The notes under the pieces are model-generated. The model was not told the DNA's origin and did no database searches. It worked only from the letters and a program-made list of their open reading frames with translations. From Pseudomonas sp. FP2309 (GTDB taxonomy: Bacteria; Pseudomonadota; Gammaproteobacteria; Pseudomonadales; Pseudomonadaceae), in NCBI RefSeq assembly GCF_030687575.1, contig NZ_CP117439.1:3091501-3155500 (forward strand): a stretch of DNA of 64,000 nucleotides, read 5' to 3'. Position numbers and translations under genes: made by a program. The stretch's first letter is position 1. The number at the start of each line of letters is the position of its first letter. This document shows positions 28,406 to 34,800 of the stretch, one piece after another.

Positions 28406-28768
28406 TCAGCTCACAGCCAACTCCACCACCCCGCCGTTCAACCGTACCGGCCACACGCGCAAGCGCTGGTGTGGTGCCTCCAGGCACTGCCCATCGTGCA
28501 AGCGGTAATGCTGCTTATAGATCGGCGCAGCCACCACCAGATCCCCCTTGATACAACCCACCAAACCACGCCCGATCACATTCGCCCCGGACTCCGGGTC
28601 GTGGTTGTCGATGGCGAATAACGTCTGCTCCTGCGCGCCGGGCAGGTAGAACAGTGCCACCTGGGCGCCGTCGAGCCACACCACCACGCCGGAATCGCGC
28701 ACCAGGTCGGTCTCGTTGCACACGCTTTTCCAGGTAGCCAGGTTGCGCTGCGTATTGGAGTGGCTCAT
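28406..28768 (-). CDS. nirD: Assimilatory nitrite reductase (NADH) small subunit
   Basis: 120 residues. Rieske-like fold (GLVGCIKGDLVVAAPIYKQH, then DGQCLEAP) but without the Cys-His cluster ligands, as in E. coli NirD, which is an accessory subunit of NirB. Its ATG overlaps the nirB stop (TGATG), so translation is coupled. It is the last gene of the nirBD unit and converges on aer. Confidence 0.93.
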   Translation of the reverse strand: MSHSNTQRNLATWKSVCNETDLVRDSGVVVWLDGAQVALFYLPGAQEQTLFAIDNHDPESGANVIGRGLVGCIKGDLVVAAPIYKQHYRLHDGQCLEAPHQRLRVWPVRLNGGVVELAVS

Positions 28769-31323
28769 CAGGCAATCTCCTCGATGACGGGAATCAGGTT
28801 GAGTTCGGCGGCCATGATCGGCCGACGCTGGCCGCGCTCCTGGACAAAGTGGATGTCCGGGTCGGGGCGTTTGTCGTTGACGAAGGTGCGGAAGCGCTTG
28901 AGTTTTTCCGGGTCTTTGAGGGCGTTGGCCCATTCGCATTCGTAGCGGTCGACCACCAATTGCATCTGCGCTTCGAGCTCGGCGCCCAGGCCCAGGCTGT
29001 CGTGCAGGATCACGTCTTTGAGGAAGTCCAGGCCGCCTTCCAGGCTTTCGCGCCACACCGAGGTGCGTTGCAGCTTGTCGGCGGTGCGGATGTAAAACAT
29101 CAAAAAGCGATCGATGTACTTGATCAACGTGGCGTCGTCGAGGTCGGTGGCGAACAGTTCGGCATGGCGCGGGCGCATGCCGCCGTTGCCGGCGATGTAA
29201 AGGTTCCAGCCCTTCTCGGTGGCGATCACCCCCACGTCTTTGCTCTGGGCCTCGGCGCATTCACGGGTGCAACCGGACACCGCGAACTTGAGCTTGTGCG
29301 GCGAACGCAGGCCCTTGTAGCGGTCCTCGATCAGCAGCGCCATTTTCACGCTGTCCTGCACGCCATAACGGCACCAAGTGCTGCCCACGCAGGACTTCAC
29401 CGTGCGCGTGGACTTGCCGTAGGCATGCCCGGTTTCGAAACCGGCGGCAATCAGCTCGGCCCAGATATCCGGCAGCTCATGCAGTTGCGCGCCAAACAGG
29501 TCGATGCGCTGGCCGCCGGTGATCTTGGTGTAGAGGTCGTATTTCTTCGCCACTTCGCCGATCACGATCAGCTTGTCGGCGGTGATCTCTCCCCCGGGAA
29601 TACGCGGCACCACCGAGTAGGTGCCGTTCTTTTGCATGTTGGCCATGAACGTGTCGTTGGTGTCCTGCAATGGCACCAGGGAGGCGTCCATGATCGGCTG
29701 GTTCCAGCACGAGGCCAGGATTGAGCCCACCGCCGGTTTGCACACGTCGCAACCGGTATGGCCACGGCCGTGTTTGGCCAGCAGTTCTTCAAAGGTGATC
29801 ACCCCTTCCACGCGCACCAGGGCATACAGTTCCTGGCGGGTGTAGGCAAAGTGTTCGCACAGGCTCTTGTCGACGCTGACGCCTCGGGCGATCAACTCGT
29901 GTTCGAAGACTTGCTTGAGCAGCCCGGCGCAGCCACCGCAACCGGTGCAGGCCTTGGTCTGGGATTTGAGTTCGCCAAGGTCGCTGCACCCGGCGTCAAT
30001 CGCCGAGCAGATCGCGCCTTTGTTGACGTTGTGACACGAGCACACGGTGGCCGATTCCGGCAGCGCGCCAGGGCCCAGGGTTGGCGCGCCGGCCGAGGAC
30101 GGCAGAATCAGGCTGGCCGGTTCGGCCGGCAGCGCAATCGCGTTCTGCATGTATTGCAGCAAGGTGTCGTAATAGCTGTTGTCGCCCACCAGCACAGCGC
30201 CGATCACGTGCTTGCCGCTTGCGTCCACCACCAGGCGGCGGTAGCTGGCGCTGGCCTCGTCGATGAACTGATAGCTGCGCGCGCCGGGTGTGTGCGCATG
30301 GGCGTCGCCGATGGAGCCCACATCCACGCCCAGCAATTTGAGCTTGGTCGACATATCGGCGCCGACAAAGGGTTCGGCGGCCTGCTCGCACAGCAATGCA
30401 GCCACCCCGCGCGCCATCTGGTAGCCCGGCGCGACCAGGCCGAACAGGCTGCCGTTCCACGATGCGCACTCGCCGATCGCATAAATGTGCGGGTCGCAAC
30501 TCAAGCATTCATCGTTAATCACCACGCCACCGCGCGGGCCAATCTCCAGGCCGGCCTGACGCGCCAGGGCGTCCTGGGCACGGATGCCGGCCGAGAACAC
30601 AATCAGGTCGGTTTCGAGGAATTCGTCATTGGCAAAGTTCATGCGGTAGCGGTACTGCTCGCCCGCGCTTATCGACTGGGTGGCGCGGGACAGGTGCACG
30701 CCGACGCCCAGTCGTTCGATCTGGGCCTTGAGCGCCAGGCCACCGAAGTCGTCCAACTGCACCGGCATCAAGCGCGGTGCGAATTCCACCACATGGGCTT
30801 CCAGGCCGAGGCTTTTCAGCGCGTTGGCCGCCTCCAGGCCCAGCAGGCCACCGCCGACCACCACGCCGCGCCGCGCATTGGCCGCCGCAACGCGGATCGC
30901 ATCGAGGTCCTGCAAGGTGCGGTACACCAGGCGTGAATCGCCTTCAGCGCCCTCGATCGGCGGCACGAAGGGGTAAGAGCCGGTGGCCAGTACCAGTTTG
31001 TCGTACGCCACGCAGCCCTGGGCGGTGATCACCTCGCGGCGCTCGCGGTCGATCTCCAGTACCGGCACACCCAAGTGCAGCGTGATGCCCGGCGTCTGGT
31101 ACAACGCCGCTTCGGACAGCGCCAGCGACTCGGCATCGCGACCGGTGAAGTACTCGGACAGGTGCACACGGTCATAGGCGCGCATCGGCTCTTCGCTGAA
31201 CACGTGCAGTTGGTAGCGTTCCAGCGCGCCGCGCTCGATCAGTTGCTCCACACAGTGGTGGCCGACCATGCCATTGCCGACGACGATCAGGGTTTGTTTG
31301 CTACTGGCGATCTTGGAGTTCAT
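28768..31323 (-). CDS. nirB: Assimilatory nitrite reductase (NADH) large subunit
   Basis: 851-residue cytoplasmic enzyme reducing nitrite to ammonium with NADH. In order: FAD/NAD Rossmann domains (LIVVGNGMVGHHCVEQL, VVVGGGLLGLEAANAL), BFD-type [2Fe-2S] domain (VCSCHNVNKGAICSAI, CTGCGGCAG, HTGCDVCKPAVGS), and sirohaem/4Fe-4S reductase domain (SCVGSTWCRYG and SGCTRECAEAQSKDVGV carry the four cluster Cys). The ATG at 31323 (MNSKIASSKQTLIV) fits the family; the site upstream is weak. Transcription starts from a sigma-54-like promoter and runs through a leader terminator. Confidence 0.95.
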   Translation of the reverse strand: MNSKIASSKQTLIVVGNGMVGHHCVEQLIERGALERYQLHVFSEEPMRAYDRVHLSEYFTGRDAESLALSEAALYQTPGITLHLGVPVLEIDRERREVITAQGCVAYDKLVLATGSYPFVPPIEGAEGDSRLVYRTLQDLDAIRVAAANARRGVVVGGGLLGLEAANALKSLGLEAHVVEFAPRLMPVQLDDFGGLALKAQIERLGVGVHLSRATQSISAGEQYRYRMNFANDEFLETDLIVFSAGIRAQDALARQAGLEIGPRGGVVINDECLSCDPHIYAIGECASWNGSLFGLVAPGYQMARGVAALLCEQAAEPFVGADMSTKLKLLGVDVGSIGDAHAHTPGARSYQFIDEASASYRRLVVDASGKHVIGAVLVGDNSYYDTLLQYMQNAIALPAEPASLILPSSAGAPTLGPGALPESATVCSCHNVNKGAICSAIDAGCSDLGELKSQTKACTGCGGCAGLLKQVFEHELIARGVSVDKSLCEHFAYTRQELYALVRVEGVITFEELLAKHGRGHTGCDVCKPAVGSILASCWNQPIMDASLVPLQDTNDTFMANMQKNGTYSVVPRIPGGEITADKLIVIGEVAKKYDLYTKITGGQRIDLFGAQLHELPDIWAELIAAGFETGHAYGKSTRTVKSCVGSTWCRYGVQDSVKMALLIEDRYKGLRSPHKLKFAVSGCTRECAEAQSKDVGVIATEKGWNLYIAGNGGMRPRHAELFATDLDDATLIKYIDRFLMFYIRTADKLQRTSVWRESLEGGLDFLKDVILHDSLGLGAELEAQMQLVVDRYECEWANALKDPEKLKRFRTFVNDKRPDPDIHFVQERGQRRPIMAAELNLIPVIEEIA

Positions 31324-31361
31324 ATCAGCACCCGACAACACTCATCACGGTTAAAAAAAGC

Positions 31362-31397
31362 AAAAAAAAACGCCTGAAACCTTGCGGTTCCAGGCGT
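31362..31397 (-). terminator. Leader attenuator terminator of nirB
   Basis: On the minus strand ACGCCTGGAACC-gcaa-GGTTTCAGGCGT forms a 12-pair stem (one G-U) with a GCAA tetraloop, followed by eight or nine Ts. It lies about 40 bases upstream of the nirB ATG, with no gene before it on that strand, so it is a leader attenuator rather than the end of another transcript. Confidence 0.85.
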
Positions 31398-31406
31398 CTT
31401 TGCCTG
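31391..31406 (-). promoter_or_regulatory. ANTAR-type hairpin in the nirB leader
   Basis: On the minus strand CAGGC-AAAGAC-GCCTG: a 5-bp stem with a hexaloop having A at position 1 and G at position 4, the pattern recognised by ANTAR antiterminators (NasR, NasT, EutV). Its 3' arm is the 5' arm of the terminator, so the two cannot coexist. I could not find a convincing first hairpin beside it. Confidence 0.6.
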
Positions 31407-31514
31407 TTCTTATGCGGGATCGGTTCGGACGACTTCGCCGGATCCATCGCTTTATGCCCATGACCTGTTAGGGCCTGTCGATCGTCGTTGACCGAGTGGG
31501 ATTGCGGGGGAGCT

Positions 31515-31530
31515 TGCAGGGTCTGTGCCA
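31515..31530 (-). promoter_or_regulatory. Sigma-54-like promoter of nirBD
   Basis: On the minus strand TGGCACAGACCCTGCA fits TGGCACG-N4-TTGCW with two differences and exact GG-N10-GC spacing. It would start a leader of about 180 bases containing the terminator. NtrC-dependent sigma-54 control is usual for nitrate assimilation in Pseudomonas. Confidence 0.6.
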
Positions 31531-31648
31531 AACTGGCGAGGCCGCGTGCTCATGGCTGCCGACGCCATTTTAATAGCCCAATCAGCCCGGATTGCGCCTC
31601 CAACTGGTGCGCGCCGCCTCAAAAAAGCGCACCTCTGAGCGTGTTGCA

Positions 31649-31689
31649 GTGAGCGGGCTGGCCTCACTCACCACAGCAAGCCCGCTCAC
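31649..31689. repeat. REP-like inverted repeat upstream of nasA
   Basis: GTGAGCGGGCT (31649-31659) and AGCCCGCTCAC (31679-31689) are perfect 11-bp inverse copies around 19 bp. Read on the minus strand, GTGGTGAGCGGGCTTGCTG is typical of P. fluorescens REP sequences. It lies between the two divergent promoters. Confidence 0.65.
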
Positions 31690-31742
31690 CACACACGTCT
31701 TCTCACACCACAACGCCGCGCATGCCAGTGCTTGGAAAAACC

Positions 31743-31758
31743 TGGCGCGTGACTTGCT
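31743..31758 (+). promoter_or_regulatory. Sigma-54-like promoter of nasA
   Basis: TGGCGCGTGACTTGCT matches TGGCACG-N4-TTGCW at all conserved positions but one, with GG-N10-GC spacing. The start site would be near 31769, just before the first ANTAR-type hairpin at 31774. Confidence 0.7.
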
Positions 31759-31773
31759 AGGAACACCTCAAGA

Positions 31774-31815
31774 GCAGTCAACGCTGATTGCCCCACACAC
31801 GACAAAGGCGCCGTG
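31774..31815 (+). promoter_or_regulatory. ANTAR-type tandem stem-loop in the nasA leader
   Basis: First hairpin: GCAGTC-AACGCT-GATTGC (31774-31791), six pairs including one G-U. Second hairpin: CACGAC-AAAGGC-GCCGTG (31798-31815), five pairs with one A-C mismatch. Both hexaloops have A at 1 and G at 4, and the linker is six bases. The 3' arm of the second hairpin is the 5' arm of the terminator at 31808, so protein binding would free the polymerase to reach nasA. This is the established layout for NasT/NasR-type antitermination; the regulator gene is not in this window. Confidence 0.75.
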
Positions 31816-31856
31816 CAACCCCCGTTTACGAACGGCGGGTTGCAGGGCGCTTTTTT
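31808..31856 (+). terminator. Leader attenuator terminator of nasA
   Basis: GCGCC (31808-31812) pairs with GGCGC (31846-31850), and TGCAACCC (31814-31821) with GGGTTGCA (31837-31844), with a few more inner pairs, followed by TTTTTT. It ends 31 bases before the nasA ATG, with no upstream gene on this strand. Confidence 0.85.
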
Positions 31857-31887
31857 GTTGGCGGGTAAAAAGTTTCGAGGGTTACAG

Positions 31888-34800
31888 ATGGCAAACCAAA
31901 GCGTACGTAGCGTGTGTCCTTATTGTGGCGTGGGCTGCGGCATCGTCATGCAGGTCGAGCAGAATAAAGTGGTCAAGGTGATCGGCGACACGGCCCACCC
32001 CACCAACCTCGGCCGCCTGTGCACCAAGGGCACCACCTGCGGGCAAGCCATCGCCGAGTCCGGACGCATGGAAAATGCCTACTTGCGTGAACACCGCGAG
32101 CACGACCCGGTGCGCATCGCCATGGACAAGGCCATCAGCGAAACCGCTGGCCGCCTGCGGCATATCCTCGACCGCGATGGCCCGGACGCACTGGCCTTCT
32201 ACGTGTCCGGGCAGATGTCGCTGGAAGCCCAGTACCTGATCAACAAGTTAGCCAAGGGCTTTGTCGGCACCCATAACATCGAATCCAACTCGCGCCTGTG
32301 CATGGCCAGCGCGGGCAGCGGCTACAAACTGTCACTGGGTGCGGACGGCCCGCCCGGTTCCTATGAAGACTTCGACCGCGCCGAGCTGTTCTTCGTGATC
32401 GGCGCGAATATGGCCGACTGTCACCCGATCCTGTTCCTGCGCATGATGGACCGGGTCAAAGCCGGGGCAAAACTGATCGTGGTCGACCCTCGGCGCAGCG
32501 CCACGGCGGACAAGGCCGGCCTGTACCTGCCAATCAAACCGGGCACCGACCTCGCGCTGCTCAATGGCCTGCTGCACCTGCTGGTGAAGAACGGCCACAC
32601 CGATCCGGCGTTTATTGAAGCTTTCACCGACGGCTGGGAGGCGATGCCTGGCTTCCTCGAAGACTACCCGCCGCACACCGTGGCCGAGATCACCGGTCTG
32701 GCCGAAGCCGATATCCGCCAAGCCGCCGACTGGATCGGCACAGCCGCCGAGTGGATGAGCTGCTGGACCATGGGCCTCAACCAGAGCACCCACGGCACCT
32801 GGAACACCAACGCCCTGTGCAACCTGCACCTGGCCACCGGCGCGATTTGCCGCCCCGGCAGCGGGCCGTTTTCCCTGACCGGCCAGCCCAATGCCATGGG
32901 CGGACGCGAGATGGGCTATATGGGGCCAGGCCTGCCAGGACAACGCTCAGTGCTGGTGGAAGCCGATCGCCGATTTATCGAAGACCTGTGGCAGATCCCT
33001 CAGAATCGCCTGCCGCGCCAGGCCGGTGGCGGCACCGTGGCGATGTTCGAGCAACTGGCCGCGGGGCAGATCAAAGCCTGCTGGATCATCTGCACCAACC
33101 CGGTGGCCAGCGTGCCGAACCGCCAGACCGTGATCGACGGCCTGCGCGCCGCCGAACTGGTGATCACCCAGGACGCGTTCCTCGACACCGAAACCAACCG
33201 CTACGCCGATATCCTGCTGCCCGGCGCGCTATGGGCCGAGGCTGAAGGGGTGATGATCAACTCAGAACGCAACCTGACCCTGATGCAAAAAGCCGTCGAT
33301 GCGCCCGCCGAAACCCTGCCCGACTGGCAGATCATCGCCAGGGTCGCCTGTGCCATGGGCTTTGCCGAGGCGTTCACCTACACCTGCGCCAGCGAGGTGT
33401 TTGAAGAAATCAAACACGCCTGGAACCCCAAGACCGGCTACGACATGCGCGGCGCCAGCTACGCCCGCCTGCGTGAACAACCGCTGCAATGGCCCTGCGC
33501 ATCCAACGAGGCAGCGCCGCGCAACCCGATCCGCTACGCGCACAACGGCACACTCACCTTCGCCACCGACACCGGCAAAGCCCGGTTCTACCCTCGGCCG
33601 CACATGCCACCGGCGGAACTGCCAAATGACGCTTTCCCCTTCGTGCTCAACACCGGCCGTGTGCAGCACCAGTGGCACACCCTGACCAAGACCGGCAAGG
33701 TCGCCACCCTGAACAAACTCAACCCCGGCCCCTTCGTGGAAATCCACCCCGAGGATGCCGCGCGCCTGGGCATCCGTGCCAAGGACCCGGTGGAAGTGCG
33801 CTCCCTGCGTGGGCGCGCGGTGTTGCCCGCCGTGATCACCGACCGGGTACGCCCCGGCAACTGCTTTGCGCCCTTTCACTGGAACGACGTGTTTGGCGAG
33901 CACTTGGCGATCAATGCCGTGACCCACGACGCCGTCGACCCGATTTCGCTGCAGCCGGAGTTCAAGTGCTGCGCCGTCGCACTGGCCCGTGTCGAACTGA
34001 TCGAGCACCGCTTTCTCGAGCAACCGGCCGCCGCCGCCCATGCCCTTGCAGAGGCCCCCGCCATGTCGCGCTTCGACGCCTTCGCCGAACTCACCGGCAT
34101 CCGCGACCTGCCGGCACCGGCCCTGTGCGACAGCGAACGCACCTACCTCGCTGGTTTCCTCAACGGCCTGCAATCCGGTGCCGCGCGCCAGGCCAAGGGT
34201 GTGCCAGTGATGCCGGCCAGTGCGCCGTTGACCCAGGACGCCCGATTGTGGCTGGACGGTTTGCTCGCGGGCTTGTTCAGCCGCAGCGAAACCGCCCCTG
34301 CGCCCTCCCCCGACGTCACCTTGTTGTGGGCCTCGCAGACCGGCAACGCCCAAGCCCTGGCCGAACGCTGCGCCAGGCGCCTGCGGGAAGCAGGCATCAG
34401 CGTCGAACTGAGCGCGATGGCAGACTTCCCCGCCAGCCGATTGGCCAGCACCCAAACCCTGGCGTTGATCAGCAGCACCTTTGGCGACGGCGATCCACCG
34501 GACAATGGCGAAGCGTTCTGGCACGGCCTCAGCAGCATTGGAACGCGACTGGAGTCCCTGCGCTTTGCCGTGCTGGCCCTGGGCGATCCGAACTATGACC
34601 AGTTCTGCCGGCACGGCAAAAGGCTTGACCAGCGCCTGTTGGAATTGGGCGCCACGCGCCTGCTGGAACGGGTCGACTGCGACACCGACTTCGAAGAACG
34701 CGCCGACGCCTGGCTGACGCGCCTCCAGCATACCCTCAACCCGGCCAAACCCATCACCCAGGCCACCCCCGCCGGCAAAACCAAGCTGCATGGTTCGCGC

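Follow-up and report, generated by a model that had tools for sequence, protein, structure and literature searches.

The window analysed here, a stretch of 64,000 nucleotides from the genome of Pseudomonas sp. FP2309 (NZ_CP117439.1, positions 3,091,501 to 3,155,500), carries the genes for a nitrate reductase (nasA) and for the large subunit of nitrite reductase (nirB) in divergent orientation, and raises the question of how transcription into nasA is controlled. A preliminary description had read the nasA leader as a sigma-54-like promoter followed by two ANTAR-type hairpins in tandem, the second excluding a terminator, and had proposed antitermination by NasT. Both the tandem hairpins and the NasT reading were upheld by two mutually exclusive folds, by conservation, by covariation of hairpin P1 and of the terminator, and by the presence of a nasST pair at another site of the genome. 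Based on this evidence, it is very probable that the leader is initiated by sigma-54 and controls nasA by NasT-dependent transcription antitermination; binding by NasT, sensing of nitrate by NasS, and read-through are predicted from homologous systems. The features of the intergenic region are collected in Table 1.

Table 1. Features identified between and including nasA and nirB, with positions in the window
Feature	Position	Strand	Basis or remark
sigma-54 (-24/-12) promoter of nasA, TGGCGCGTGACTTGCT	31743..31758	+	string search; site present in all 19 nasA leaders
ANTAR hairpin P1, GCAGTC-AACGCT-GATTGC	31774..31791	+	string search, alignment, folding
ANTAR hairpin P2 (antiterminator), CACGAC-AAAGGC-GCCGTG, A x C mismatch	31798..31815	+	string search, alignment, folding
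intrinsic terminator, nasA leader	31808..31856	+	stem 31808-31850, six T 31851-31856; string search, folding, covariation
Rfam RF03032 narK RNA match	31744..31814	+	60.4 bits, cut-off 43.2
nasA, molybdopterin nitrate reductase with fused flavodoxin and FAD/NAD domains, 1328 aa	31888..35874	+
nirB sigma-54 site, TGGCACAGACCCTGCA	31515..31530	-	string search
nirB leader hairpin P1, loop AACGAC	31478..31495	-	alignment, folding, string search
nirB leader middle hairpin M, loop GAAGTC (G1, G4)	31417..31445	-	alignment, folding, string search
nirB leader hairpin P2, loop AAAGAC	31391..31406	-	alignment, folding, string search
nirB leader terminator, nine T, overlaps P2	31362..31398	-	terminator scan, folding, string search
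nirB, nitrite reductase large subunit	28768..31341	-	true start may be an ATG a few codons inward

The sigma-54-like character of the nasA promoter was borne out: each of the 19 nasA leaders compared has a GG-N10-GC site where one would be expected. Based on the -12 C at 31757, transcription is predicted to start near 31768-31770, with P1 following about 5 nt later. Counted from the -12 C, the first P1 pair lay 14-19 nt away in 17 of the 19 nasA leaders and 23 nt away in the other two; in 28 of 33 narK leaders it lay 15 nt away. As had been claimed, both hairpins of the nasA leader have six-base loops with A at position 1 and G at position 4 (AACGCT in P1, AAAGGC in P2), and the gap of 6 nt between them lies within the range of about 5-12 nt of ANTAR linkers. 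The P2 stem, however, is weaker than had been described: five of its six pairs are standard, and the pair adjoining the closing C-G is an A x C mismatch, which was kept in all 19 nasA leaders of the alignment. The terminator sharing the 3' arm of P2 and ending in six T was found by string search, and the ATG of nasA at 31888 lies 31 nt past its T run.

Folding of the nasA leader up to the T run gave P1 plus the terminator (-48.3 kcal/mol, z -7.28, 200 shuffles), and folding of the leader cut at 31817 gave P1 plus P2 (-11.3 kcal/mol, z -0.65, i.e. no stabler than the shuffles). The 3' arm of P2 and the last bases of its loop belong to the terminator as well, so that P2 and the terminator are mutually exclusive. 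A simple terminator scan listed the nirB terminator and not that of nasA, the latter being missed probably because a mismatch and a bulge interrupt its stem.

A loose scan for tandem hexaloop hairpins, which required a closing C-G, an ANNGNN loop and five or more pairs and allowed one mismatch and a gap of at most 30, returned seven pairs on the two strands of the window; in 60 dinucleotide shuffles the mean was 1.07 and the highest count 4. Loose pairs of this kind are not rare in the window, which gives some credit to the view that the arrangement before nasA arose by chance in G+C-rich sequence. The tandem motif alone is weak evidence, and it is the Rfam match and the conservation that, on sequence comparison, raise the nasA leader above chance. 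Place and sequence are conserved over the 19 nasA leaders, and together with the Rfam score and the covariation this brings the probability of a chance product close to nil; it was rejected on conservation, and the motif count alone would not have sufficed.

An Rfam search of the whole window, one of the checks suggested with the preliminary description, matched the nasA leader to the narK RNA family RF03032 over its gathering score (E 7.6e-9), and this was the sole match in the window above any gathering score. The consensus of the family opens with GGCaCAgcucUUGCU; the model marks P1 alone as paired and stops inside P2. The start of the consensus looks like a -24/-12 element, which would place promoter DNA outside the transcript within the model. 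Besides the score, the nasA leader shares this -24/-12-like start with narK RNA; it differs in that the model is silent on the terminator and that the leader here stands before nasA.

RF03032 was also matched before narK of this genome (76.9 bits) and, below the cut-off, before nasS (L005:1501-1575, 37.5 bits); from the position of the latter match, nasST may control its own leader. None of the weaker matches in this genome (L006-L010, at most 29.6 bits) was convincing by eye, and L006 was not recovered in a repeat search at E <= 0.01. Within the genus the family was found in 53 of 59 genomes at E <= 0.001, in 51 of them over the cut-off, and in none of 14 control genomes. Loci were fetched for part of the matches and placed by tblastn with NasA, NirB, NasS, NasT and NarK of this genome; most of those placed precede narK, nasA or nasS. 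No relative of these five genes was found by tblastn at L075, L006-L010 or L079 (which covers the L006 site), and the sole relative at L061 was a 32% NasS. At class level, RF03032 was present at E <= 0.001 in 13 of 274 genomes, this genome included. The other 12 genomes gave 13 loci, all of which except L148 adjoin relatives of nasS, nasT, narK, nasA or nirB. At least two A1/G4 hairpins were seen on the matched strand in 10 of these 13 class loci (not in L147, L148 and L150), and a TGG-N10-GC site in 7 of those 10 (not in L146, L149 and L151).

Covariation was examined in an alignment of the 19 nasA leaders (alignment A1), from which RNAalifold, unguided, recovered P1 and the base of the terminator. 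With P1 and P2 as the named structure, 90.0% of the cells were paired and 10 cells were changed on both sides (shuffle mean 3.7, reached in 0 of 500 shuffles); counted as pairs and not as cells, two were changed on both sides, a number reached in 322 of 500 shuffles. For the terminator, in the upper part of which the alignment is poor, 82.2% of the cells were paired and 15 were changed on both sides (shuffle mean 7.2, reached in 1 of 500), all these shuffle tests ignoring kinship among the leaders. The both-sided change in P1 and P2 falls wholly in P1, so that the lack of stem covariation that would have counted against the preliminary description was not observed for P1 and the terminator, and P2, nearly invariant with its constant A x C, supplies no covariation. 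The P1-P2 gap was 2-27 nt across the nasA leaders, with an overcount in L048 and L049 because their P1 has a mismatch. A1 and G4 were kept in both loops, except for G1 in P1 of L073, the nasA leader of G043, a genome without nasT.

These data bear on the proposal that the hairpins only terminate a short RNA (sRNA) from its own sigma-54 promoter, without antitermination, a proposal favoured by the filing in Rfam of RF00625, a relative of the nasA-leader layout, as an sRNA. Covariation, however, shows that P1 is maintained along with the terminator, and the loops keep A1/G4 save in the case of L073. In addition, nasA lies 31 nt downstream and no other promoter was seen, the promoter scan giving no sigma-70-like site at 31200-32000. 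We consider a free-standing sRNA of this kind highly improbable.

NasT antitermination draws further support from the gene content of the genome. A single ANTAR match was found (C1:4137782-4137931), and this sole ANTAR protein is a receiver-ANTAR NasT, encoded directly after a NasS-like gene and ahead of a gene for a NarK-type transporter (NarK model score 310.0, cut-off 311.7); the nasST pair that the preliminary description had suggested seeking elsewhere in the genome is thus present. Based on its sequence, the NasS-like partner is the putative nitrate binder. The closest solved structure to this NasT is that of EutV (6wsh). In a comparison by eye with nine contact residues of EutV given in PMC8934654, R142, K143, E160, Y164 and M172 were kept, R177 was replaced conservatively by K, and K147, N173 and R175 were changed.

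The nasT gene was present in 53 of the 59 genus genomes. Together with RF03032 it gave 52 genomes with both, five with neither and two discordant (G041 with nasT and no RF03032, G043 with RF03032 and no nasT), for a Fisher p of 7e-6 in which the species are not independent. Three of the six nasT-less genus genomes, G001, G018 and G043 (L165, L166 and L167), each carry a NIT-ANTAR (NasR-type) protein; no ANTAR match was found in the genomes of G003 and G037, and G051 has two ANTAR proteins. RF00625 leaders are retained in G001, where the match lies about 6 kb from the NIT-ANTAR gene, and in G018. Given the presence of NIT-ANTAR in nasT-less genomes that keep leaders, certain lineages may have swapped one regulator for another and retained the leaders. 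Such leaders can probably serve another regulator, which counts in favour of a different ANTAR protein (NasR type), or some other factor, acting on the antiterminator leader of nasA. In the present genome, however, the single ANTAR match is the NasT beside NasS, and action by another such protein or factor is unlikely here.

In the mechanism proposed for NasT, RNA polymerase would start some 5 nt ahead of P1. As long as nitrate and nitrite are absent, NasT would be held by NasS, the 3' side of P2 would be drawn into the terminator, and transcription would end at the run of six T that lies 31 nt upstream of nasA. Once freed, NasT would bind the loops of P1 and P2 and P2 would be held; no terminator would then form and nasA would be transcribed. 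We infer that, with its A x C mismatch, P2 competes less well with the terminator, which would lower NasT-free read-through. NasT probably also acts on the narK, nasST and divergent nirB leaders. According to PMC6759348, narK and bjgb of Bradyrhizobium have predicted NasT hairpins, yet they were up in a nasT mutant, so that NasT hairpins do not always mean activation.

Control of the nasA leader by NtrC, which had been stacked on NasT in the preliminary description, was not supported. In enteric bacteria the NtrC consensus is TGCACY-N5-RGTGCA, and no site within three mismatches of it was found at 31342-31743; the consensus being the enteric one, other sites are possible. Action of NtrC on this leader may be proposed by analogy with published work on a related leader. 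The best NtrC matches of relatives had a mean of 2.9 mismatches upstream of nasA and 3.0 upstream of nirB, against about 4.0 in shuffles, and means of 3.8 before nasS and 4.2 before narK, no better than shuffles. An inverted repeat (31594-31612) was observed between the two divergent sigma-54 sites and is present in several relatives; it was rejected as an NtrC site, its spacing being unlike the enteric consensus.

Among the closest known systems is NalA, the nirBD leader in Pseudomonas, which according to PMC12830290 (citing Nie 2024 and Romeo 2012) depends on sigma-54 and NtrC for initiation and is terminated early when NasT is not bound. It has in common with the nasA leader the sigma-54 start, the leader terminator, NasT antitermination and the nitrate assimilation genes; it precedes nirBD, whereas the leader here precedes nasA, and NtrC is unsupported in the window. 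In Paracoccus denitrificans, NasT is reported to bind the nasA leader RNA in a gel shift (PMC3795266), and mutation of the hairpins is reported to have shown their function (PMC5424462). NasST and leader hairpins before nasA are shared with that system, in which the hairpins are located 137 bp (HI) and 91 bp (HII) upstream of nasA; the comparison made here is one of layout. NasT antitermination of nas and nir leaders is thus already published, and the nasA leader described here adds another case.

A second leader, absent from the preliminary description, was found on the opposite strand before nirB (31362-31530, minus), consisting of a sigma-54 site, ANTAR-type hairpins P1 and P2, a middle hairpin M, and a terminator. 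The nasA/nirB intergenic region would hold, on both sides, a compact two-step control by a sigma-54 promoter and, about 5 nt past the transcription start, an RNA switch read by NasT. The P1-P2 distance of the nirB leader is 71 nt, outside the range of about 5-12 nt of ANTAR linkers. As described in PMC3369931 and PMC8934654, the eut leaders bound by EutV resemble the leaders here in having two A1/G4 hexaloop hairpins, the second exclusive with a terminator, and differ in the signal, ethanolamine, and in their linkers of 5-12 nt against 71 nt in the nirB leader. A drastic loss at 14 nt is reported in PMC3369931, and abolition of EutV antitermination by 20 extra nt in PMC8934654. NirB of this kind occurs in 39 genus genomes, and 30 leaders were fetched. 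All 30 have P2 and 28 have P1, that of L135 being of four pairs; L127 and L128 are without P1, and the P1-P2 distance was 22-72 nt in the 27 nirB leaders measured.

Alignment A2 was made of 19 of the 30 nirB leaders, leaving out L120 as a duplicate and L127, L128, L129 and L133-L139, in which P1 is missing or the linker is short or too different. RNAalifold placed hairpin M, with a six-base loop, between P1 and P2. In this alignment the M loop has G4 in 18 of 19 leaders. At position 1 of the loop, 11 leaders have A and 8, including that of the present genome, have G; A1 and G4 occur together in 10 of 19. Among the 11 distinct M loops, 9 have A1 and 10 have G4. Covariation in A2 is weak: both-sided change was seen in two pairs (a number reached by 31 of 500 shuffles) and in two cells (86 of 500). 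Among the leaders outside A2, the folds gave six-base M loops with A1/G4 in L128, L133 and L138 and with C1/G4 in L134 and L135, a seven-base loop in L136, and none in L127, L129, L137 and L139.

The three-hairpin plan of the nirB leader is followed by the Rfam P11 family, RF00625, which was matched in 43 of the 59 genus genomes, 38 of them scoring over the cut-off, in none of the 14 controls, and, in a genome search, not in the present genome; as a name for the nasA leader it was rejected (17.8 bits, cut-off 70). A NirB-type gene follows in all 30 fetched RF00625 loci (L080-L109), 33-37% identical to the NirB of this genome over the covered part. Of these NirB-type frames, 9 close at 409-479 aa and 21 run to the end of the locus, and in seven named loci checked the product was 816-821 aa in five and 409 and 429 aa in two; because some frames have only 409-479 aa, the gene after P11 is not always a full NirB. 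P11 shares with the nasA leader the sigma-54 site, the AACG-type P1 loop, the AAAGGC P2 loop and the terminator, and differs in preceding a NirB-type gene and in having the middle hairpin.

The M hairpin of P11 reads TCCCG-loop-CGGGA. In the best 80 of more than 590 named P11 loci (L173-L252), P2 was found in 79 and a six-base M loop in 72; A1 and G4 occurred together in 67 of 79, and in 14 of the 19 distinct loops of this set. In 70 of 72 the M stem reads CCCG/CGGG, and it therefore does not covary. With 4-bp arms, the same best 80 loci gave a P1-M gap of 9 nt in 55 of 67 and an M-P2 gap of 4 nt in 59 of 72.

P11 leaders thus described resemble sigma-54 and ANTAR leaders of a NirB-type gene rather than free-standing sRNA genes, and the Rfam narK RNA and the Pseudomonas P11 sRNA are suggested to be one kind of leader, with promoter DNA inside the models. 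In P. aeruginosa PA14, P11 is reported to regulate the nitrogen assimilation operon with NirB (PMC12080996), the identity of this P11 with RF00625 resting on the name, and in PMC13086519 overexpression of P11 is reported to have had no effect on nitrite build-up in Stutzerimonas. A literature search by terms found no paper on the three-hairpin plan or on P11 as NalA, Romeo 2012, Nie 2024, Marogi 2024 and Wang 2012 lying outside its reach.

One tentative explanation of the wide P1-P2 distance is that the nirB and P11 leaders are three-hairpin ANTAR arrays in which NasT would be passed from P1 to M and on to P2. That NasT binds M is itself doubtful: the closing pair of M is G-C in P11, against C-G in P1 and P2, and the M loop in the present genome begins with G. 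If M were merely a spacer hairpin, equally constant gaps would also result. Should the nirB M hairpin be bound, the dual-hairpin rule for ANTAR targets would need widening. In the two nirB leaders in which P1 is missing, L127 (G018) and L128 (G056), an AACG-type loop was observed at the position of M, by eye in the former and in the fold in the latter.
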